The notes beneath the pieces are model-generated. The model saw only the letters and a list, made by a program, of their open reading frames with translations, did no database searches and was not told where the DNA came from. From Mucilaginibacter saanensis (GTDB lineage: Bacteria > Bacteroidota > Bacteroidia > Sphingobacteriales > Sphingobacteriaceae): a stretch of DNA of 64,000 nt. The position numbers were made by a program, and so were the translations under genes. The number at the start of each line of letters is the position of its first letter. Position 1 is the stretch's first letter. Where the stretch lies: positions 62,001-126,000 of the forward strand of contig NZ_JACHBZ010000013.1 of the NCBI RefSeq assembly GCF_014200575.1, written 5' to 3'. Below, piece after piece: positions 46,957 through 62,043 of the stretch.

Positions 46957-48768
46957 TTATTGGTTTGTAAATCTCTTAGCGTTAATTCTTCTTTCGTTTT
47001 CGTTCAGGAATATTTTACGTAAGCGGATGCTTTGAGGGGTTACCTCAATGTATTCATCAGCTTGTATGTATTCCATTGACTCTTCTAACGAGAATTTAAT
47101 AGCAGGTGCTATACGTACGTTGGTATCGCTACCAGATGCGCGCATGTTGGTTAACTGCTTGCCTTTAGTTAAGTTAATAACCAAATCGTTATCGCGGATG
47201 TGCTCGCCTAATACCTGTCCTTCGTAAACATCAACTCCCGGATCAATGTGGAAACGACCACGATCCTGTAATTTATCAATTGCAAAGGCGGTAGTTTTAC
47301 CAGTATCCATTGATACCAATACACCATTTAAACGGCCCGGGATCTGACCTTTCCATGGTTCGTATGCTTTAAAGCGGTGAGCCATGATAGCCTCGCCACC
47401 GGTAGCAGTCAATACGTTGTTACGTAAACCGATAATACCACGGGCCGGGATATCAAATTCTAAGTGTTGTAGATCGCCTTTAGGCTCCATGATCAACAGA
47501 TCACCTTTGCGCTGTGTTACCAACTCAATAACTTTACCTGCAACATCACCCGGTACATCAACAATTAATGTTTCAACCGGCTCACATTTAACACCGTCAA
47601 TTTCTTTAACAATTACCTGTGGCTGACCAACCTGCAACTCATAACCTTCGCGGCGCATAGTTTCAATCAATACAGATAAATGGAGAATACCACGACCATA
47701 CACCAGGTATGAATCAGGCGATTCGGTTTCAACAACCTTAAGCGCCAGGTTTTTTTCCATTTCTTTATATAAACGATCACGCAGGTGACGTGACGTAACA
47801 AATTTACCTTCTTTACCAAAAAACGGTGAAGTATTGATAGTGAACAACATGTTCATGGTAGGCTCATCAATATGAATAACCGCCAGTTGTTCTGGTTTTT
47901 CAAAATCGGCAATGGTATCACCAATATCAAAACCTTCAATACCTACTACGGCACAAATATCGCCAGAGCTTACTTCTGTAGCACGTACTTTACCCAAACC
48001 TTCAAAAGTATAAAGTTCTTTTATTCTTGATTTTTGGATAGTACCATCGCGTTTTACCAATGATACCGGCATGTTTTCTTTGATGGTACCACGGGCAACA
48101 CGACCAATAGCAATACGGCCTACGAAAGATGAATAATCTAAAGAGGTGATCTGCATTTGTAATGTACCTTCTTCTATAGGTGCTGGTGGAATGTTTTCCA
48201 GGATAGCATCCATTAGCGGGAAAATATTATCAGTAGGTTGTTTCCAGTCGTTGCTCATCCAGCCTTGTTTTGATGAACCGTAGATAACCGGGAAATCCAG
48301 CTGATCTTCAGTTGCCTCAAGGTTGAAGAATAACTCAAAAATTTGTTCGTAAACCTCTTCCGGGCGACAGTTTTCTTTATCTACCTTGTTTACAACCACA
48401 ATTGGTTTTAAGCCTAAAGCCAAAGCCTTTTGGGTTACAAAGCGGGTTTGAGGCATAGCGCCTTCAAAAGCATCGCAAAGTAATAATACACCATCAGCCA
48501 TTTTCAATACGCGTTCAACCTCGCCACCAAAGTCGGCGTGACCAGGAGTATCAATAATATTGATCTTAACGTCTTTATACATTACCGAAACGTTTTTTGA
48601 TACGATGGTGATACCACGCTCACGTTCCAGGTCGTTATTATCCAATATCAATTCACCAGTTTCTTGGCCTTCGCGAAAAATGGCGCAACTGTGTAAAATT
48701 TTGTCAACCAAGGTGGTTTTACCGTGGTCAACGTGTGCGATAATCGCAATGTTTCTTATTTTTTGCAT
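46957..48768 (-). CDS. typA: Ribosome-associated GTPase TypA/BipA
   Basis: A 603-residue translational GTPase related to EF-G, which binds the 70S ribosome and helps 50S assembly, mainly under stress or cold. G1 is AHVDHGKTT (residues 11-19), G3 DTPGHADF and G4 NKVDKENC; the EF-G-like domains and the BipA-specific C-terminal domain are complete. A frame extending to 48795 exists, but the ATG at 48768 gives the family N-terminus (MQKIRNIAIIAH) and lies downstream of the promoter element at 48793-48800. Confidence 0.97.
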   Translation of the reverse strand: MQKIRNIAIIAHVDHGKTTLVDKILHSCAIFREGQETGELILDNNDLERERGITIVSKNVSVMYKDVKINIIDTPGHADFGGEVERVLKMADGVLLLCDAFEGAMPQTRFVTQKALALGLKPIVVVNKVDKENCRPEEVYEQIFELFFNLEATEDQLDFPVIYGSSKQGWMSNDWKQPTDNIFPLMDAILENIPPAPIEEGTLQMQITSLDYSSFVGRIAIGRVARGTIKENMPVSLVKRDGTIQKSRIKELYTFEGLGKVRATEVSSGDICAVVGIEGFDIGDTIADFEKPEQLAVIHIDEPTMNMLFTINTSPFFGKEGKFVTSRHLRDRLYKEMEKNLALKVVETESPDSYLVYGRGILHLSVLIETMRREGYELQVGQPQVIVKEIDGVKCEPVETLIVDVPGDVAGKVIELVTQRKGDLLIMEPKGDLQHLEFDIPARGIIGLRNNVLTATGGEAIMAHRFKAYEPWKGQIPGRLNGVLVSMDTGKTTAFAIDKLQDRGRFHIDPGVDVYEGQVLGEHIRDNDLVINLTKGKQLTNMRASGSDTNVRIAPAIKFSLEESMEYIQADEYIEVTPQSIRLRKIFLNENERRINAKRFTNQ

Positions 48769-48792
48769 GAAATATGCCCTATAAATTTGGCG

Positions 48793-48800
48793 CAAAGGTA
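48793..48800 (-). promoter_or_regulatory. Candidate -7 element of typA
   Basis: TACCTTTG on the minus strand matches TAnnTTTG exactly, 24 bases before the ATG at 48768. Confidence 0.6.
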
Positions 48801-48994
48801 CAGTTAATATATGAGCTTTTAAAGCTTTATCGACTAAAGCAGAAAGATTTATACAATTTGATTACCAAATAATGTTGATGAGATACTATTTAAAGCCTTT
48901 ATAAACAGCGATAGTACATAATAAGTTATCGCAAATTTACTTCAGATCTGATATGCCCTATCTTAAGCTTACATAATATTCACCTCGCGTGTAT

Positions 48995-49017
48995 GATGCT
49001 GAAACAAGTCAGTGTCC
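48995..49017. repeat. Half copy of the palindromic GAAACAAGTTCAG element
   Basis: GATGCTGAAACAAGTCAGTG is a decayed single arm of the element found in full at 63762-63851. It stands just outside the esterase stop. Confidence 0.5.
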
Positions 49018-49032
49018 AGTTCCAAGCTTATA

Positions 49033-49821
49033 TTATCGCCCAAATGCCCAAACCAAAAACTTAGGCATAGCTTTGGCCCAGGTTGCAGTATCATGACTGC
49101 CGCCAACTACCTCTATATATTGTATATCCTCCGGACGTTTATAGCCTTTATCTTCCAGCTCTTTAATCAGATCAATGGTATCATCAATGGCATCAATAAT
49201 CCCGTTTTTGTTCCGGTCACTTGTTTCATCATGAGTACCGGTTTGCAACCAGAATTTAAGACTGGGTTTATCCCCCGTGTTTTTAATAACCGAATGCATA
49301 ATACGGTCAGCATCGGTATATCCGTTGCCCAAATCCTTCCTTCGCCACCAGAATGATCCGGAAAACACGCCCACCTTATCAAACACATCACCGTTGTTCC
49401 AGGCAATATCAAAGGCCGACAAGCCCCCTAAAGAAAACCCGGCAAAAGCAGTGGTTTCAAAGCTATTTACACCGGTTTCAGCTTCAATCATTGGTAACAG
49501 CTCTGTTTTTATAAACGCGGTATAAATATCAGCCCGGGAGCCCCGGCCTTTAAAATCCGGATTACCCGCCACGCCATACTCCTGAATGCGGTCTTCGGCT
49601 GCGTGTATAGCCACTACCAGAGTCGGTTTTAAGCGGTTGTTACCGTAAAGCTGCTCCAGCGTACCCCGCAGTTCCAGGTTCTCCAACTCCTGCCCATCGT
49701 TCAGCAGCAACAGGTTTAGCGGCCCGTCTATTTCCTGTTCATCAGGCATTAACCATGTACAGGTAACCTCGCGTTGCAGCAGATCAGAACTTATAATTAT
49801 ACTTTTTTCAATGATCGTCAT
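49033..49821 (-). CDS. Enterochelin-esterase-like alpha/beta hydrolase
   Basis: A serine esterase of 262 residues from the chosen ATG. The nucleophile elbow is GFSLGG with Ser130; His243 in GGSHDTATW is the likely catalytic histidine. An EF-hand-like loop, DRNKNGIIDAID (residues 202-213), has acidic or amide residues at positions 1, 3, 5, 9 and 12 and Gly at 6, suggesting calcium. The family (putative esterase, Fes/IroE-like) cleaves esters or lactones; there is no signal peptide, so it acts in the cytoplasm. A longer frame to 49917 was rejected because it runs into the promoter and repeat. It faces the amidoligase series. Confidence 0.85.
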   Translation of the reverse strand: MTIIEKSIIISSDLLQREVTCTWLMPDEQEIDGPLNLLLLNDGQELENLELRGTLEQLYGNNRLKPTLVVAIHAAEDRIQEYGVAGNPDFKGRGSRADIYTAFIKTELLPMIEAETGVNSFETTAFAGFSLGGLSAFDIAWNNGDVFDKVGVFSGSFWWRRKDLGNGYTDADRIMHSVIKNTGDKPSLKFWLQTGTHDETSDRNKNGIIDAIDDTIDLIKELEDKGYKRPEDIQYIEVVGGSHDTATWAKAMPKFLVWAFGR

Positions 49822-49871
49822 TTCAGTTTCAGCCCAGCCCCAATACATCTTTATCGTAATTTTTAAGGGCA

Positions 49872-49879
49872 CAAAAGTA
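49872..49879 (-). promoter_or_regulatory. Candidate -7 element of the esterase gene
   Basis: TACTTTTG on the minus strand matches TAnnTTTG exactly and gives a leader of about 45 bases to the ATG at 49821. Confidence 0.5.
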
Positions 49880-49907
49880 AAAATAGTTTTTATTTTTTGA
49901 GTATTTA

Positions 49908-49987
49908 CCTCACCCAATCCTCTCCTTTGGAGAGGACTTTAAAATACGCTTTTTTGAACCCTCTCCTTTGGAGAGGGTAGGGTGAGG
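49908..49987. repeat. Compound inverted repeat (CCTCACCC ... GGGTGAGG)
   Basis: Outer arms CCTCACCC and GGGTGAGG enclose two copies of the self-complementary CCTCTCCTTTGGAGAGG (49919-49935 and 49960-49976). The whole could fold as a cruciform with two side hairpins. It separates the two divergent esterase genes. Confidence 0.85.
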
Positions 49988-50083
49988 TTTCCTTTTTTTT
50001 TGGCCTAACCTTTAATTTATCAGACTGTTGCCTTTTTGAATCAAACCTCTTAACTTACCATCTGAAACCAAAAAACAATCGCT

Positions 50084-50791
50084 TTGACCGAAAAATATCA
50101 TCGTTGGCACTCGCCAAACTTAAGCGCCGACATGGAGATGCTGGTATTTGGCGACAGTGGGTTTCCAGTAATCCTATTCCCCACTACCAAGGGGCGTTAT
50201 TACCAGAATAAGGATTTTGGGTTGATTGATAGTGCCAAATGGTTTATTGATCAGGGCCTGGTGAAAATTTATTGCCCTGACACTATTGACGACCGCAGTT
50301 GGTACGACAAAAGTATCTCCCCTGCCGATCGCGCCCGTAACTATACCTGGTATGATAAAATGCTTGTTGACGAGTTGGTACCATGGGCCATGCACGAAAC
50401 CGGCGCAGGTAAAGTAGCCATGGCTGGCTGTAGTTTTGGCGGTTACCATGCAGCCAACTTTGCCTTTAAACATCCCGAAAAGGTAGCCCACCTGTTTACC
50501 ATGGGCGGCGCCTTTGATATTAAAATGTTTACCGATGGCTTTTATAACGACGATATATTTTACAATAACCCAGTTGATTACTTGCCTGGCGACAATAAGC
50601 CCGAACTGTGGCAGATGAATATTATACTTGGTACATCAGAGCATGATATTTGCAAAGATTATAACATACAGCTATCAAACATTTTAACGCAAAAAAACAT
50701 TAATCATTGGTTGGATATTCGCCCCTTTGCCAGTCACGACTGGCCAATCTGGCGCGAGATGTTCCCGCATTATTTATCTGCTATTAAATGA
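50084..50791 (+). CDS. Esterase-like alpha/beta hydrolase (COG4947 type)
   Basis: A 235-residue cytoplasmic hydrolase. The nucleophile elbow is GCSFGG with Ser117, and FASHDWPIW near the C-terminus supplies the histidine. The opening YHRWHSPNLSADMEMLVFG and FPTTKGRYYQNKDFGLID agree with uncharacterised esterases of COG4947. The start is TTG at 50084, chosen because the conserved N-terminus begins at its second codon and no ATG or GTG lies nearby. It is 99 bases before the ATP-grasp gene on the same strand, in a series that also holds GCS2 and GATase genes. Confidence 0.83.
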   Translation: MTEKYHRWHSPNLSADMEMLVFGDSGFPVILFPTTKGRYYQNKDFGLIDSAKWFIDQGLVKIYCPDTIDDRSWYDKSISPADRARNYTWYDKMLVDELVPWAMHETGAGKVAMAGCSFGGYHAANFAFKHPEKVAHLFTMGGAFDIKMFTDGFYNDDIFYNNPVDYLPGDNKPELWQMNIILGTSEHDICKDYNIQLSNILTQKNINHWLDIRPFASHDWPIWREMFPHYLSAIK

Positions 50792-50890
50792 GATTAAGGA
50801 TAAAAGACTAAGATATTAAGAGTTAGGAATATATATAAACAATAACCGGGCACCGGTACTCAAATCCGCCCCCCGAAATACATCATCCCC

Positions 50891-51970
50891 ATGAAAAAAA
50901 TAGGCATCCTATTCGGACAAGAAAATTCATTTCCACAGGCATTTGTTGACCGTATTAATCAAAAGGCCGAGAAAAATATATCGGCAGAGTTTGTTCGCCT
51001 TGACAAGGTGATCCAGGCCGAGCCGCTGGATTATGCAGTAATTGTAGACCGCATATCGCAGGATGTGCCCTATTATCGGGCTGCATTAAAAAATGCGGCT
51101 ATATGCGGTACCGCGGTAATCAACAATCCGTTTTGGTGGAGCGCCGATGAGAAGTTTTTCAACAACGCCTTAGCCGTAAAACTGGGCATACCGGTACCCA
51201 AAACGGTGATTTTACCATCAAAAGAACTTCCTGATGATACTACCAATAAATCATTCCGAAACCTGGCCTACCCTCTGGATTGGGATGGCATTTTTAACTA
51301 TGTAGGTTTCCCGGCCTACATGAAACCCTTTGATGGTGGCGGCTGGAAAGAGGTTTACCAATTACAAAACCGGGATGATTTTTTTGACAAATACAATAAA
51401 ACCAAGCAATACGTAATGATGCTGCAGGAAGAGGTTGTGTTTGACGATTACTTCCGGTGTTATTGCATTGGCGGCAAACATGTGCGCATTATGCAGTATG
51501 AACCGCGCAATCCGCATCATTTGCGTTATGAGCATGGCAAGGCCCCTGCATCAAAAAAAATACTGGAAACAGTTAAAAACTATGTGATAAAATTAAACCA
51601 GTATTTAGGTTATGATTTTAATACGGTGGAATTTGCCATTCGCGATGGCATCCCTTATGCTATTGATTTTTGCAACCCTGCCCCCGACGCCGAAGTAACC
51701 AGCGTAGGCCAGGAAAACTTTGACTGGGTAGTGGAAGCCGCTACAGATTATGCCATTGAACGCGCAAAAAAACAAAAAGACGGTCTGGATAACTTAACCT
51801 GGGGCGAGTTTGTAAAAACATCGGCAGCAAAAACTCCGTTGACGGGGGGCAAAATCAAACCAACGAAAGAAGATGTATCTGTAAGCAAAGTTGACCATGC
51901 AATTGGGGCGGAGGGAAAGGTGAAGAAAGAGAAAGCAGCGAAGACCAAAAAAGCTACCGCCAAGAAATAA
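50891..51970 (+). CDS. ATP-grasp ligase (RimK/glutathione synthetase-like)
   Basis: A 359-residue ATP-grasp enzyme that should form an acyl phosphate and then an amide bond. AYMKPFDGGGW (residues 142-151) is the nucleotide-binding strand and glycine loop, MLQEEVVFDDYF (177-188) follows, and the metal-binding part is VEFAIRDGIPYAIDFCNPAPD (Glu247, Asp259, Asn262). A low-complexity Lys/Ala tail (343-359) is unlike the core and could bind nucleic acid or be disordered. Neighbours are a hydrolase upstream, then a GCS2-type ligase and a glutamine amidotransferase, so it is probably one of two amidoligases of one pathway. Substrate unknown. Confidence 0.85.
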   Translation: MKKIGILFGQENSFPQAFVDRINQKAEKNISAEFVRLDKVIQAEPLDYAVIVDRISQDVPYYRAALKNAAICGTAVINNPFWWSADEKFFNNALAVKLGIPVPKTVILPSKELPDDTTNKSFRNLAYPLDWDGIFNYVGFPAYMKPFDGGGWKEVYQLQNRDDFFDKYNKTKQYVMMLQEEVVFDDYFRCYCIGGKHVRIMQYEPRNPHHLRYEHGKAPASKKILETVKNYVIKLNQYLGYDFNTVEFAIRDGIPYAIDFCNPAPDAEVTSVGQENFDWVVEAATDYAIERAKKQKDGLDNLTWGEFVKTSAAKTPLTGGKIKPTKEDVSVSKVDHAIGAEGKVKKEKAAKTKKATAKK

Positions 51971-52075
51971 AGAACAAAAGATAGGCCCGAATCCTACATG
52001 TTTAGTTGCCGGCTTGCGTGGCGCTTGCCTTTTTGAGAGGGGACGTTTATCGAATAATATAAACTAATAAAATCA

Positions 52076-52534
52076 ATGAGCGATAAACCAACAATTGATC
52101 AAAAACTATCTAACAATATTAAACAATATGGGCTCCAGGTATTACATGTAATGGCAGATGACACAGGCCCTGGCTTTAGTTATTCCATTGGGTTGTTTGA
52201 AAGTTATGGTCATCCGGAAATAATTATAATTGGGCTAAAACAACAATTAGCTCATAAGCTTATAAACAATATGGCTAATGACGTTAAGAAGGGAAAAATA
52301 TACACGTCATTAAAATATGAAGCTGGTATACTGGATAATTTTAATTGCTACCTGATTAAAGTAGAGAAATCAAACTAGGACAATTACATGGGGCAGGCAC
52401 AACGCTGGTATAGAGGGGATGAGTTTCCTTTATTACAATGTGTGTATCCAACTGTAAAAGGAATTTATCCATGGGAGGATAAATGGCCCGAGAATATTAA
52501 AGATTTACAGCCTTTATTAGGCCCCATTAAATAA
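52076..52534 (+). pseudogene. DUF4262 gene with in-frame TAG
   Basis: The first 100 codons encode a DUF4262-type protein (LHVMADDTGPGFSYSIGLFESYGHPEIIIIG). They end with TAG at 52376-52378, but the same frame goes on without shift for another 52 codons, reading GQAQRWYRGDEFPLLQC and GIYPWEDKWP, which are the usual C-terminal part of the family, to TAA at 52532. A single change from TAT or TAC (Tyr) to TAG would explain it, though amber readthrough or a sequence error are possible. The gene is richer in A+T than its neighbours and splits the amidoligase series, so it may be an insertion. Confidence 0.75.
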
Positions 52535-52548
52535 AGCACTAACCAATT

Positions 52549-53646
52549 ATGAACGAGTTTACCTTAGGTGTTGAAGAAGAGTTTATGGTGATTGATCCCG
52601 TAACCAGGGAGTTAAAATCACACGAACAAAAAATTGTAGATAGTGCCCAGAAGATCCATGAAGATCAGGTAAAAGCCGAAATGCACCAGGCCGTAGTGGA
52701 AGTAGGCACACACATTTGCCACAATACCCAGGAGGCCCGTAAAGAGGTAAGCAAATTGCGTACTACCGTAGCCCAACTGGCCGGCGATATTGGTTTGCGT
52801 ATTGGCGCAGCCGGCACCCACCCCTTTTCGCTCTGGCAGCACCAGCTCATTACTGATCATCCGCGGTATTTTGAAATTGTGGATGAAATGCAGGAGGCCG
52901 CACGCTCCAACCTTATCTTTGGTTTACATGTGCATGTGGGCATCCAGTCGCGCGATATGGCTATTCATATAGCTAACCAGGTGCGGTATTTTTTACCGCA
53001 TGTTTATGCACTATCAACCAACTCCCCATTTTGGGAGGGGCGTAATACCGGTTTTAAATCATTCCGCACCAAGGTATTTGACAAGTTTCCACGCACAGGT
53101 ATTCCAGATTCCTTCAGCAGCATTGAGGAATATGATAACTACATTAAGCTGCTGGTAAAAACCAACTGTATTGATAATGCCAAGAAAATATGGTGGGACA
53201 TCCGCGTACATCCATTTTTTGAAACTATTGAATTCAGAATTTGCGATTGCCCTATGCTGGTTGATGAAACCATTGCCTTTACCGCGCTTTTCCAGGCGCT
53301 TTGTGCTAAATTGTACAAATTAAGGCAACAGAACATGAAGTTTATTACCTACTCCCGTGCGCTTATTAATGAAAATAAATGGCGCGCCGCTCGTTACGGT
53401 ATCGACGGTAAAATGATTGACTTTGGTAAAGAAATGGAAGTAAACACCCGATCGCTGGTATTGGAGCTCCTGGATTTTGTTGATGATGTGGTGGACGAAT
53501 TAGGCTCGCGAGACGACCTGCAATATGTACATAAGATACTTGAACACGGCACCGGAGCCGACAGGCAGTTAGCCGTTTACCAGCAAAACAGTAGCTTTGT
53601 AGACGTGGTTGACTACATTACCTCGCAAACTTTAAAGGGATTATGA
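52549..53646 (+). CDS. Carboxylate-amine ligase (GCS2/YbdK family)
   Basis: A 365-residue ligase of the glutamate-cysteine ligase 2 superfamily, using ATP to join a carboxylate and an amine. The N-terminal GVEEEFMVIDP (residues 7-17) carries the metal-binding glutamates, EVGTHI follows near 50, and the GTHPFSLW and FGLHVHVGI segments are typical of YbdK. The E. coli relative shows only weak glutamate-cysteine ligase activity; the true substrate is unknown. The stop overlaps the following GATase start by four bases, so the two are tightly coupled. Confidence 0.9.
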   Translation: MNEFTLGVEEEFMVIDPVTRELKSHEQKIVDSAQKIHEDQVKAEMHQAVVEVGTHICHNTQEARKEVSKLRTTVAQLAGDIGLRIGAAGTHPFSLWQHQLITDHPRYFEIVDEMQEAARSNLIFGLHVHVGIQSRDMAIHIANQVRYFLPHVYALSTNSPFWEGRNTGFKSFRTKVFDKFPRTGIPDSFSSIEEYDNYIKLLVKTNCIDNAKKIWWDIRVHPFFETIEFRICDCPMLVDETIAFTALFQALCAKLYKLRQQNMKFITYSRALINENKWRAARYGIDGKMIDFGKEMEVNTRSLVLELLDFVDDVVDELGSRDDLQYVHKILEHGTGADRQLAVYQQNSSFVDVVDYITSQTLKGL

Positions 53647-54479
53647 CAACAAATAAACCGGAAATCAGGATAGCGATCCTTGATTTGTATGATGGGATAG
53701 CTAACGAGGGAATGCGCGGTTTCCAGGATATTTTAAACCGGTATAGAGTACAGCATGGACTTAATTTAAGTTACCAGATATTTGATGTGCGCCGGCGCTG
53801 CGAAATGCCGGATGCCAAATTTGACATCTATATTTCAAGCGGTGGCCCTGGCGATCCACTGATATCAGAAGGTACTGAGTGGGAGAAAAAGTATTTCAGA
53901 TTGATAGAAAAACTGGAAGACCATAACCTTTCTAACAATACCGATAAAAAACATACGCTGTTTGTGTGTCACTCTTTCCAGTTGATGTGCCGTCATTACA
54001 AATTGGGCGATATCAATATGCGTCGTTCTCCGTCGTTCGGGGTGCTGCCGGTTAATCAAACCGATGCGGGTGCCAGTGAACCCCTTTTTGAGGGTTTGTT
54101 TAACCCGTTTTACGCTGTCGATTCGCGCAGCTGGCAGGTAATCAACCCCAACGAAAACCGCTTTAAAGAACTCGGTATGCAGTTGGTTGCCATTGAAAAA
54201 GAACGCCCACATATTGAACTGCCCCGCGCTATGATGGCCGTACGTTATAACGACTACTTTTTTGCTACCCAGTTTCACCCGGAAGCTGATGCCGGCGGCA
54301 TGAAAGCACTATTGCTACAGGATGAGAAAAAGAACGAAGTGATAAACGAGCATGGAGAGGTAAAATACGACGAAATGCTTAACCACCTTAATGACCCGGA
54401 TAAGATAACCCATACCCAACAGATACTCATCCCTAACTTTTTAGACAGGGCAATATTGAGCTTGCACGGCGCAGTGTGA
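53643..54479 (+). CDS. Class I glutamine amidotransferase-like protein
   Basis: A 278-residue class I GATase-fold protein. The nucleophile is Cys109 in FVCHSFQLMC, and the His/Glu pair is His212/Glu214 in TQFHPEAD; SSGGPGDP at 65-72 is the oxyanion strand region. The elbow reads CHSFQ, with Ser in place of the usual Gly. Standalone GATase domains either provide ammonia to a partner ligase or hydrolyse gamma-glutamyl bonds; the overlap with the GCS2 ligase gene supports a joint role. About 55 residues after the triad form a C-terminal extension. Confidence 0.87.
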   Translation: MTTNKPEIRIAILDLYDGIANEGMRGFQDILNRYRVQHGLNLSYQIFDVRRRCEMPDAKFDIYISSGGPGDPLISEGTEWEKKYFRLIEKLEDHNLSNNTDKKHTLFVCHSFQLMCRHYKLGDINMRRSPSFGVLPVNQTDAGASEPLFEGLFNPFYAVDSRSWQVINPNENRFKELGMQLVAIEKERPHIELPRAMMAVRYNDYFFATQFHPEADAGGMKALLLQDEKKNEVINEHGEVKYDEMLNHLNDPDKITHTQQILIPNFLDRAILSLHGAV

Positions 54480-54499
54480 GAATTGGATAAAACGAAGGG

Positions 54500-54520
54500 T
54501 ATCCTGAGTTTGTCGAAGCA
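54500..54520. repeat. Half copy of the palindromic element (left of GIY-YIG)
   Basis: TATCCTGAGTTTGTCGAAGCA resembles one arm of the inverted repeat at 54858-54929, so the GIY-YIG gene has a copy on each side. Confidence 0.6.
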
Positions 54521-54555
54521 CGTCAGTTATTGTCTGAGTTAGATATAAAAATCTT

Positions 54556-54867
54556 TTGAAATTGGTCAACCACTATCATGTTTATATATTAGGTTGTAGT
54601 GATGGCTCTTATTACACGGGCATAACCAATAATATTGAACGACGGCTAATCGAACATCAATCAGGTGAAAATCCAAAGTCTTATACCTATAAACGACGTC
54701 CTATTCAACTTCTTTTTAACGAGGTGTTTAATGATGTTAACCAGGCAATAGCCTTTGAAAAACAGGTTAAAGGATGGCGAAGGGAAAAGAAAGAAGCAAT
54801 AATTAGTGGGAGCTGGGATTTGTTGCCTGAATTAGCGAAAGCAAGCAAAAAGGGCTCGTCATCCTGA
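54556..54867 (+). CDS. Small GIY-YIG nuclease-domain protein
   Basis: A 103-residue single-domain GIY-YIG protein of the YhbQ/UPF0213 type. The signature YVYILGC-like HVYILGCSDGSYYTGIT gives the two Tyr, and RRLIEHQSGENPKSYTYKRRP and EKQVKGWRREKKEAII supply the Arg and Glu of the active site. The start is TTG at 54556, as no ATG is placed well. The last codons (GSSS and TGA) belong to the palindromic repeat that follows, so the stop codon is provided by the repeat. It is flanked by repeat copies on both sides. Confidence 0.85.
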   Translation: MKLVNHYHVYILGCSDGSYYTGITNNIERRLIEHQSGENPKSYTYKRRPIQLLFNEVFNDVNQAIAFEKQVKGWRREKKEAIISGSWDLLPELAKASKKGSSS

Positions 54868-54929
54868 GCTTGTCGAAGGATCTTGCGCAGAAGCCTTTAC
54901 CCGCCATGCTTCGACAAGCTCAGCATGAC
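54858..54929. repeat. Palindromic element GTCATCCTGAGCTTGTCGAAG / CTTCGACAAGCTCAGCATGAC
   Basis: Arms of 21 bases (54858-54878 and 54909-54929) are complementary with one mismatch around a 30-base centre. The element overlaps the last codons of the GIY-YIG gene. It belongs to a REP-like family widespread in bacterial intergenic DNA. Confidence 0.88.
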
Positions 54930-55002
54930 ACCGCCTTCCGTCATAATTATCTTCCCAATACACAAATCAGATAAAAGAACCTGTCGTGCTGAGCCTTAAA
55001 AC

Positions 55003-55038
55003 AACAAAGCCGCAATCTTAAAAGATTACGGCTTTGTT
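55003..55038 (-). terminator. Terminator of the TolC/adaptor operon
   Basis: AACAAAGCCGTAATCTT and its complement form a 17-base stem with one mismatch around a two-base loop, followed on the minus strand by TTGTTGTTTT. Confidence 0.85.
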
Positions 55039-55057
55039 ATACCTATATGTTTTTTAA

Positions 55058-56395
55058 TTACTGTTTGGCATCGGCCGTAAACAGTTTTGATTTATCAACC
55101 TTTTCAACCACCATACCGTCGGCCAGTGTTTTTGAAATGGCAGAGTATGGTGCAGACACCACTTCATCTCCACTTTTTAAACCTGATATAACCTGTATAT
55201 AAGTATCATTCTGGATACCTGTAGTCACCTGTACCTGTTTTAGCTTGCCGGCATTATAAACAAATACATACTCTTTTGATGGCACGGTGATCTGCGGTTT
55301 ACTTTGATCATTATCTTTTGCCGGCGCAGTATTGGTTTCCTTTTTTTCCTCGCGGGTAGTTACTGATTGTATTGGCACCGACAATGCTTTTACATGGTTA
55401 GTATTGATATCAACAGTAGCCGTTAATCCCGGACGGAAAGGCGAAGGATTATCTACCGTTTTTTTCAATAAACCAGCATAAGAGCTGGAATCAATACGTA
55501 CTTTAACTGTAAAGTTGGTCACCTGATCGGCAGTGGTACCTACCACGTTGGCTGAGCTTCCAATTTCAATTACCTGCCCGGTAAATTTTTTACCTAAAAA
55601 GGCATCAATCTCAATATTAGCCGGGTCGCCTAAGCCGATACGGTTAATATCATTTTCGTTCACATCTACATTCACATCCATTTTACTCAGGTCAGATATG
55701 GTCATGATCTCGGTACCGGCAAACTGCTGGGTTCCCAAAACACGCTCGCCTTTTTGAATAGAAAGCTTAGACACCACGCCATCAACCGGCGAATAAATAG
55801 TTGTTTTAGCCAGGTTATCCTGTGCTTCTTTAACCGATGCAGATGATTGAGCCAAACCAAATTGTGCGCCAACTACATTTTGTTTAGCCGCTTCTAAACT
55901 GGCCTTGGCACCTTCGTAACTGGCTTTGGCATTGTCATACTCTGATGCTGTTAATACCTTATTCTTATAAAGTTCTTCACTGCGTTTAAAAATAGCAGCC
56001 TGGTTGGTGTAAGTAGCTTCGGCCTGCTTAAGCATTTGCTGCGAGTTGCCTACACTAGCTTTTTGGGTACTGAATGATGCTACAGCCCTATCATAACCCG
56101 ACTTTAATATATCGGGGCGTATTTTACATATCAGCTGGCCTTTTTTTACCACATCCCCCTCTTTTATAGGCAGCTCTACCACCTCTCCGGATACTTCCGG
56201 ACTTATTTTAACCTCAATATGAGGTTTTATTTTTCCGCTGGCCGATACTGTTTCATTCACTTCACGCACATCGGCTTTTTCGGTGGCTATCTGGGTTAAA
56301 GGCGGCTTACCAATAACGCCGGTCACCTTTAATATGATAAGCAATACAATTATTGCTCCCAGGCCAATCAAAATATATTTAGTAGTTTTTCCCAT
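55058..56395 (-). CDS. Efflux periplasmic adaptor (MacA/HlyD type)
   Basis: A 445-residue membrane-fusion protein anchored by one N-terminal helix (about residues 7-27). A lipoyl-type segment (KISPEVSGEVVELPIKEGDVVKKGQLIC, 65-92), a long alpha-hairpin (about 100-215) and a second lipoyl half (IYSPVDGVVSKLSIQKGERV) are followed by the beta-barrel and membrane-proximal domains. It connects an inner-membrane pump with TolC, most like MacA of the MacAB ABC type. The TolC gene is 52 bases upstream, but no pump gene follows: the operon ends in a terminator right after it. Confidence 0.92.
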   Translation of the reverse strand: MGKTTKYILIGLGAIIVLLIILKVTGVIGKPPLTQIATEKADVREVNETVSASGKIKPHIEVKISPEVSGEVVELPIKEGDVVKKGQLICKIRPDILKSGYDRAVASFSTQKASVGNSQQMLKQAEATYTNQAAIFKRSEELYKNKVLTASEYDNAKASYEGAKASLEAAKQNVVGAQFGLAQSSASVKEAQDNLAKTTIYSPVDGVVSKLSIQKGERVLGTQQFAGTEIMTISDLSKMDVNVDVNENDINRIGLGDPANIEIDAFLGKKFTGQVIEIGSSANVVGTTADQVTNFTVKVRIDSSSYAGLLKKTVDNPSPFRPGLTATVDINTNHVKALSVPIQSVTTREEKKETNTAPAKDNDQSKPQITVPSKEYVFVYNAGKLKQVQVTTGIQNDTYIQVISGLKSGDEVVSAPYSAISKTLADGMVVEKVDKSKLFTADAKQ

Positions 56396-61980: not shown

Positions 61981-62043
61981 AAAGTCATTCTTTTATTATA
62001 CCCTAAAACCTAAATGTGTTATCACTTATAATTTTAGTTAACA

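Follow-up and report, generated by a model that had tools for sequence, protein, structure and literature searches.

Do the neighbouring genes for two esterases, two types of amide-bond ligase and a glutamine amidotransferase-fold enzyme (GATase) in Mucilaginibacter saanensis serve one pathway, or have unrelated enzymes merely come to lie side by side? The genes occupy positions 49033-54479 of the window, which is the whole 64,000-nucleotide stretch analysed here (positions 62,001 to 126,000 of NZ_JACHBZ010000013.1, contig 13 of a 6.24-Mb genome). An initial annotation had proposed an undescribed amidoligase pathway formed by two esterases (EstA and EstB), an ATP-grasp ligase, a GCS2 ligase and the GATase. 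All five genes sit where it placed them, and the families to which they had been assigned are right, with Pfam or NCBIfam cut-offs passed by all except the ATP-grasp ligase. The cluster is real, conserved, functionally linked and larger than first noted, its chemistry is plausible, and it belongs with the amidoligase pathways. Both ligases of the original proposal are present, but the complete set has three, the overlooked member being a protein here called c5.

Each protein was searched in the same 148 Bacteroidota genomes, grouped as families f1-f33. The ATP-grasp ligase was matched in 60 genomes (two of them distantly, at 34-36% identity), GCS2 in 52 (one distantly, at 32%), the GATase in 40, EstB in 63 and c5 in 49, the EstB counts including a second, about 30% identical paralogue. 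Weak matches had been dropped before counting, namely the ATP-grasp match of G053 (E 7.8e-4), the GATase match of G025 (2e-4) and those of EstB in 10 of 73 genomes (only E > 1e-20). GCS2 accompanies the ATP-grasp ligase in 50 of its 60 genomes and the GATase does so in 40. Within 10 kb of the ATP-grasp gene lie GCS2 in 33 genomes, the GATase in 29 and EstB in 28; because these linkage counts fall below those of co-occurrence in the genome, the set is often kept even though its parts lie apart. In 11 of 40 genomes the GATase and ATP-grasp genes are more than 10 kb apart or on separate contigs, a class in which some genes on different contigs may truly be adjacent (G109).

Inside a family, a genome mostly carries the genes jointly or lacks them jointly, even where they are unlinked, and they thus behave as one unit. 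The ATP-grasp ligase, GCS2 and c5 are jointly present or jointly absent in every genome of f1 (4 with, 2 without), f4 (3 and 11), f10 (2 and 2), f14 (7 and 6), f17 (1 and 1) and f28 (1 and 1). When presence was shuffled within families, the observed concordance was reached in none of 5000 shuffles for each of five gene pairs. Two control enzymes with a patchy distribution in these genomes were flat: isocitrate lyase and catalase gave concordances of 89 and 92 against shuffle means of 89.0 and 92.2 (Fisher 0.25 and 0.07). Both controls are scarcer than the cluster members, at 23 and 24 genomes against 40-63. Their retained rows comprise 23 of 30 matched genomes for isocitrate lyase (E <= 1e-20) and 24 of 25 for catalase. 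Chance co-occurrence, named beforehand as the refutation of a shared pathway, was therefore not found, with within-family concordance above the shuffles and the controls flat.

Joint presence has exceptions. One genome (G004) holds a distant GCS2 only, and another (G144) GCS2 and c5 with no ATP-grasp match. Eight genomes carry the ATP-grasp ligase and the GATase without GCS2, four have every member except c5, and 18 have the ATP-grasp ligase, GCS2 and c5 with no GATase match (presence pattern 11101). An EstB match stands alone in one f14, one f17 and three f21 genomes.

Gene neighbourhoods lead to the same picture. They were compared in 140 loci, which are not mutually independent, and gene presence was scored in the best 80 of 573 loci with an ATP-grasp match, a sample that favours close relatives and is truncated at the ends of contigs. 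Scoring was by tblastn, replacing open reading frame (ORF) calls that had missed the ATP-grasp gene in L117 and L126. Among these best 80 loci, EstA was found in 71, EstB in 55, GCS2 in 77, the GATase in 57 and c5 in 51; bipA, which flanks the cluster, was found in 31. Since members recur in 51-77 of the 80 loci and bipA in only 31, the cluster outlives the surrounding synteny. Gene order is conserved across families. There is no room for a graspetide precursor gene between GCS2 and the GATase, where gaps measure -14 to 11 bases in 25 loci of L024-L050; in the same loci, the gaps between the GATase and c5 run from -17 to 715 bases.

The possibility that unrelated enzymes share this neighbourhood by accident is hardly credible. 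In its favour, EstA and an inserted ORF of the DUF4262 family are lineage-limited; the conserved gene order across families, the joint inheritance and the flat controls all speak against it. The within-family shuffles and controls rule accident out for the ATP-grasp ligase, GCS2, c5, the GATase and EstB.

The third ligase, c5, usually follows the GATase gene in relatives, and in the window genome it is encoded on another contig. Its predicted fold is of the glutathionylspermidine-synthetase/YgiC/eukaryotic glutathione-synthetase type. Pfam matches of 31 c5 members at E <= 1 include GSP_synth in 5 and CP_ATPgrasp_2 in 11 (best E 0.0026 and 0.0011); the first member scored weakly, at 12.7 bits against 32, and the c5 protein of L028 had no Pfam match at E <= 0.01. 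Profiles of c5 and of the ATP-grasp ligase matched no PDB sequence. A single c5 sequence retrieved nothing from the PDB beyond three glucanosyltransferase chains (E 0.032), which were taken as chance matches and set aside. Among 72,556 plasmid records there was no match to the ATP-grasp ligase (E <= 1e-10) or to c5 (E <= 1e-8).

Ten genomes carry the ATP-grasp ligase and the GATase without c5. In all seven c5-less loci that were fetched, another circularly permuted ATP-grasp protein, c55 (PF14403, 37.3 bits, cut-off 32), lies between the two genes, followed in five of the seven by c29, a PF00756-type esterase. The protein c55 is an apparent stand-in for c5 or for GCS2; either replacement could apply, since homology between c5 and c55 was not demonstrated by blastp (E 0.036 over 127 residues) or hhalign (probability 0.8%). 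Given c55 in the c5-less loci, the most constant core, as recognised post hoc, is a canonical ATP-grasp ligase together with a circularly permuted one, with GCS2 and the GATase as common additions. An extra ATP-grasp gene, c54, was also seen near the cluster in L102, L104, L113 and L132, and an isoaspartyl peptidase/asparaginase-type gene, c81, in L106, L113 and L132 and weakly in L102.

Reading of 40 loci with an unlinked GCS2, c5 or second EstB gene gave one further lead outside the window. At 4 of 8 unlinked c5 loci (three in f22 and one in f25: L167:4605-6423, L168, L172 and L173), an amidohydrolase gene (PF07969, 276.3 bits) lies directly against the beginning of c5 or overlaps it, and is preceded by a 4Fe-4S ferredoxin gene. 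The other clusters that recur across families at the 40 loci are mostly single pairs or ORFs antisense to the query gene, and one of them, with 4 loci in 3 families, resembles a secretion-signal domain by eye.

The canonical ATP-grasp ligase has its nearest named models in RimK and the R2K clade. The window protein had no Pfam match at E <= 0.01 and scored weakly against the RimK model TIGR00768 (30.3 bits, below the cut-off of 143.4; NCBIfam). R2K_2 was weakly matched by 16 of 24 family members (E <= 1, best 0.0019), the window protein not among them. Relatives at 48-83% identity occur in 57 of the 147 other genomes, and two more at 34-36%. Residues K145, E180, E247 and N262 are invariant across 24 sequences, and we take them to be the nucleotide-binding lysine, the glutamate and the E...N metal ligands of ATP-grasp enzymes. 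The C-terminal tail, encoded at 51848-51970, is rich in lysine and alanine and probably disordered.

GCS2 matches PF04107 with 216.5 bits (cut-off 21) and lies above both the carboxylate-amine ligase model NF010039 (543.2, cut-off 371) and the YbdK-family model TIGR02050 (309.2, cut-off 176.4). Its PDB relative is Escherichia coli YbdK (1r8g, E 1.2e-50), and mean column identity reaches 79% over 13 sequences. As first described, its stop codon, ending at 53646, overlaps the GATase start codon at 53643 in a shared ATGA.

The GATase (PF00117, 30.8 bits, cut-off 22.8) keeps C109, H212 and E214, its putative catalytic Cys-His-Glu triad, invariant across 36 sequences, and Gln113 likewise. Its structure was predicted with a model pLDDT (predicted local distance difference test) of 92.6, and the fold matches gamma-glutamyl peptidase GGP1 and also plain glutamine amidotransferases and MetA; the best VIA match is the glutamine amidotransferase 1o1y, and the GATase profile matched 3l7n and 2vdj only in the PDB. 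The initial annotation had allowed either ammonia supply or trimming of gamma-glutamyl bonds. Ammonia supply now appears the less likely of the two, and a hydrolase is more likely than an ammonia donor: the enzyme is unmatched in 20 of 60 ATP-grasp genomes, often lies apart from the ligase as noted above, and has GGP1 among its fold matches. Trimming stays a candidate, and the one that we prefer; a gamma-glutamyl peptidase is among the close fold matches, although plain amidotransferases are too.

Both serine hydrolases retain their putative active sites. EstA matches PF00756 (80.1 bits, cut-off 22) and keeps S162 (in G-F-S-L-G) and H275 invariant across 17 aligned sequences; EstB matches PF00561 (33.9 bits, cut-off 25.8) and PF00756 (25.3 bits, cut-off 22), and keeps S117 (in G-C-S-F-G), D188 and H218 invariant across 18. 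Neither reaches the cut-off of 222 of the enterochelin esterase model NF007758 (57.9 for EstA, 15.5 for EstB), and no signal peptide was seen by eye in EstB. To judge from the sequence, EstA more likely starts at ATG 49821 than at TTG 49917, which abuts a palindromic repeat. For the EstA linkage, 18 of 84 matched genomes were considered, and 15 were near the ATP-grasp gene including two weak matches, so a limit of E <= 1e-50 was used; at this limit EstA occurs in 14 of the 148 genomes, in 13 of them near the ATP-grasp gene. In many genomes whose ATP-grasp gene has no EstB gene linked to it, the match counted for EstB is the second-copy paralogue. In the window genome this paralogue (about 32-34% identity) lies at L143:7782-8507, beside a GDSL-like gene by eye, an uninformative neighbour.

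What might such a set produce? We tentatively propose, with a confidence that falls just short of an even chance, a single and probably cytosolic pathway whose product is a small gamma-glutamyl (pseudo)peptide assembled without the ribosome, and we infer for it the following reaction order, substrates, location and hydrolase roles. GCS2 would use ATP to activate glutamate at its gamma-carboxylate and would join it to an amine or an amino acid. At the free carboxylate, one more residue and a capping amine might then be attached by the RimK-like ATP-grasp ligase and c5. The GATase-fold Cys-His-Glu enzyme would cut or exchange the gamma-glutamyl bond, in trimming or turnover, rather than supply ammonia, and EstA and EstB may cleave esters or thioesters of the product or of a precursor. 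The proposal follows from the combination of a GCS-type ligase with two ATP-grasp-type ligases, an arrangement by which small-peptide pathways work. Glutathione synthesis is one such pathway. The E-64 pathway follows the same ligase logic (PMC12568646), and several linked ligases are said to be typical of peptide metabolites (PMC4431377). The amine cap is suggested by the fold group of c5, which includes peptide-amine ligases: a paper cited in PMC12568646 names YgiC and YjfC in its title as peptide-spermidine ligases. A narrower version is unlikely, in which the product is an undescribed gamma-glutamyl-peptidyl-amine, a bacterial analogue of trypanothione or glutathionylspermidine existing beside bacillithiol, made by a core pathway of many Bacteroidota families that is inherited in a nearly all-or-none way and has three differently built amide ligases, a dedicated gamma-glutamyl peptidase and dedicated serine hydrolases. 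Two genomes (G007 and G087), kept among the 60, weigh against the pathway, as they hold a distant ATP-grasp ligase (34-36%) and no other member.

Other roles for the same genes have to be weighed against the peptide. In protein tagging, the ATP-grasp ligase and its partner ligases would add amino acids to a ribosomal or nucleoid protein, and the GATase and serine hydrolases would trim the tag. This stays a candidate because the nearest models of the ATP-grasp ligase are RimK and R2K, and its Lys/Ala-rich tail, judged by eye, could bind nucleic acid; protein modification has been proposed for the R2K clade, including targets for R2K.2 and R2K.3 (PMC4431377). We nevertheless regard tagging as unlikely, as the same source considers multiple ligases per neighbourhood typical of peptide metabolites, no recurring target-protein gene was recognised in the neighbourhoods read, and the tail is missing in ATP-grasp relatives of only about 316-319 residues (e.g. 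L022 and L052-L056). Glutamine-dependent amidation, in which the GATase would feed ammonia to GCS2 or to the ATP-grasp ligase and yield a primary amide, is similarly improbable. The overlap of the two genes suggests coupled translation, the Cys-His-Glu residues and Gln113 are invariant, and 1o1y is an amidotransferase; the absence of a GATase match from a third of ATP-grasp genomes, its distance in others and its occurrence with the ATP-grasp ligase but without GCS2 in eight genomes stand against it.

Two further schemes turn on the gamma-glutamyl group. In the Puu pathway an amine is protected by gamma-glutamylation, and a comparable catabolism of amines or xenobiotics would have GCS2 glutamylate the amine, which is then processed before the GATase-fold enzyme frees the glutamate. 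In its favour, a gamma-glutamyl ligase-type enzyme adjoins one whose fold also occurs in a gamma-glutamyl peptidase, and the amidohydrolase and ferredoxin beside unlinked c5 in two families could fit it. It is distinctly unlikely, however, since no recurring oxidase, dehydrogenase or transporter was recognised in the linked clusters, the 18 genomes with three ligases lack a GATase match, and two ligases would be left without explanation. Equally doubtful is a glutathione- or trypanothione-like thiol, for which GCS2 would make gamma-Glu-Cys, the ATP-grasp enzymes would complete it and the esterases would act like S-formylglutathione hydrolase, itself also a PF00756 member. GCS2 does co-occur with a fold like that of glutathionylspermidine synthetase (GspS) and glutathione synthetase (GSS) in c5, and G109, the sole genome of 148 without a match to the bacillithiol enzyme BshC, carries the cluster. 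Nothing indicates cysteine as a substrate, and BshC is found in 147 of 148 genomes, carriers and non-carriers alike, so a substitute thiol is not generally needed; a general replacement of bacillithiol was rejected on these counts, with carrier G109 the one exception.

The proposed gamma-glutamyl (pseudo)peptide pathway resembles known systems in part. Like glutathione, glutathionylspermidine and trypanothione synthesis, it combines GCS-type and ATP-grasp ligases, c5 having the GspS/YgiC/GSS fold. It differs from them in its YbdK-type GCS2, its extra RimK-like ligase, its GATase-fold enzyme and its two serine hydrolases, and in its coexistence with BshC, for which a single genome lacks a match. 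E. coli YgiC and YjfC are 15-16% identical to c5, which, unlike them, sits with other ligases. GCS2 is likened to E. coli YbdK by the PDB match and the family model given above, whereas the 4-kb stretch around ybdK in strain K-12 holds no cluster gene. Plant GGP1 and the GATase share 13-14% identity; MetA and DnfC are equally close and 1o1y is closer. In contrast to the NRPS-independent pseudo-tripeptide pathways of E-64 (Cp1B) and dapdiamide (DdaF), neither a warhead enzyme nor an amide bond synthetase was recognised in the cluster, which is spread across many families of the phylum and jointly inherited.

Among the papers listed by full-text searches of the open literature, no description of the cluster was recognised; the 2009 amidoligase survey of Iyer et al., in which these families of enzymes are reportedly grouped into gene clusters, lies outside that scope. 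What this analysis adds is c5, c55 and the test of joint inheritance, and prior mention may exist in literature beyond that searched. The ATP-grasp ligase occurs in some 40% of the Bacteroidota genomes sampled, usually accompanied by the other members, and with c5 and its apparent stand-in a loose grouping of a GATase with two ligases becomes a defined, testable three-ligase pathway. If confirmed, such a pathway would add a previously undescribed small molecule to the chemistry of a large bacterial group.

Table 1. Features of the cluster region, in window coordinates.
Feature	Position	Strand	Remarks
EstA	49033..49821	-	PF00756 esterase, divergent; ORF listed from TTG 49917
Two copies of CCTCTCCTTTGGAGAGG palindrome	49919..49976	.	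between EstA and EstB; repeat, outside pathway
EstB	50084..50791	+	small alpha/beta-hydrolase; TTG start
RimK-like ATP-grasp ligase	50891..51970	+	Lys/Ala-rich C-terminal tail
DUF4262 ORF	52076..52378	+	PF14081; stops in frame; low GC; insert
GCS2 / YbdK-type carboxylate-amine ligase	52549..53646	+	NF010039
Class-I GATase-fold enzyme	53643..54479	+	PF00117; ATG overlaps GCS2 stop

The DUF4262 ORF (83.3 bits to its Pfam model), absent from the initial annotation, was considered as a pathway member and rejected. Its guanine-plus-cytosine (GC) fraction is 0.327, against 0.44-0.45 in the neighbouring genes, and the apparent remainder of the domain continues in the same frame past the stop, to 52536. 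A homologue was found by tblastn in only 2 of the best 80 related loci; L008 and L064 carry homologues in the corresponding position. The in-frame stop, the AT-richer composition and this rarity mark it as an insert.

Rfam returned no match for 48000-55500, and promoter and terminator scans stayed near the shuffled level (18 against 15.4 +/- 3.7, and 6 against 5.4 +/- 2.4). The 17-base CCTCTCCTTTGGAGAGG palindrome has 2 exact matches in the window, compared with a mean of 0.00 in 100 shuffles, and its copies appear to belong to a larger inverted-repeat element. Downstream of the GATase, a gene with a GIY-YIG domain (54556-54867) occupies the position where relatives usually carry c5; a homologue lies near the cluster in 2 of the best 80 related loci, between the GATase and c5 in L019 and after c5 in L028.

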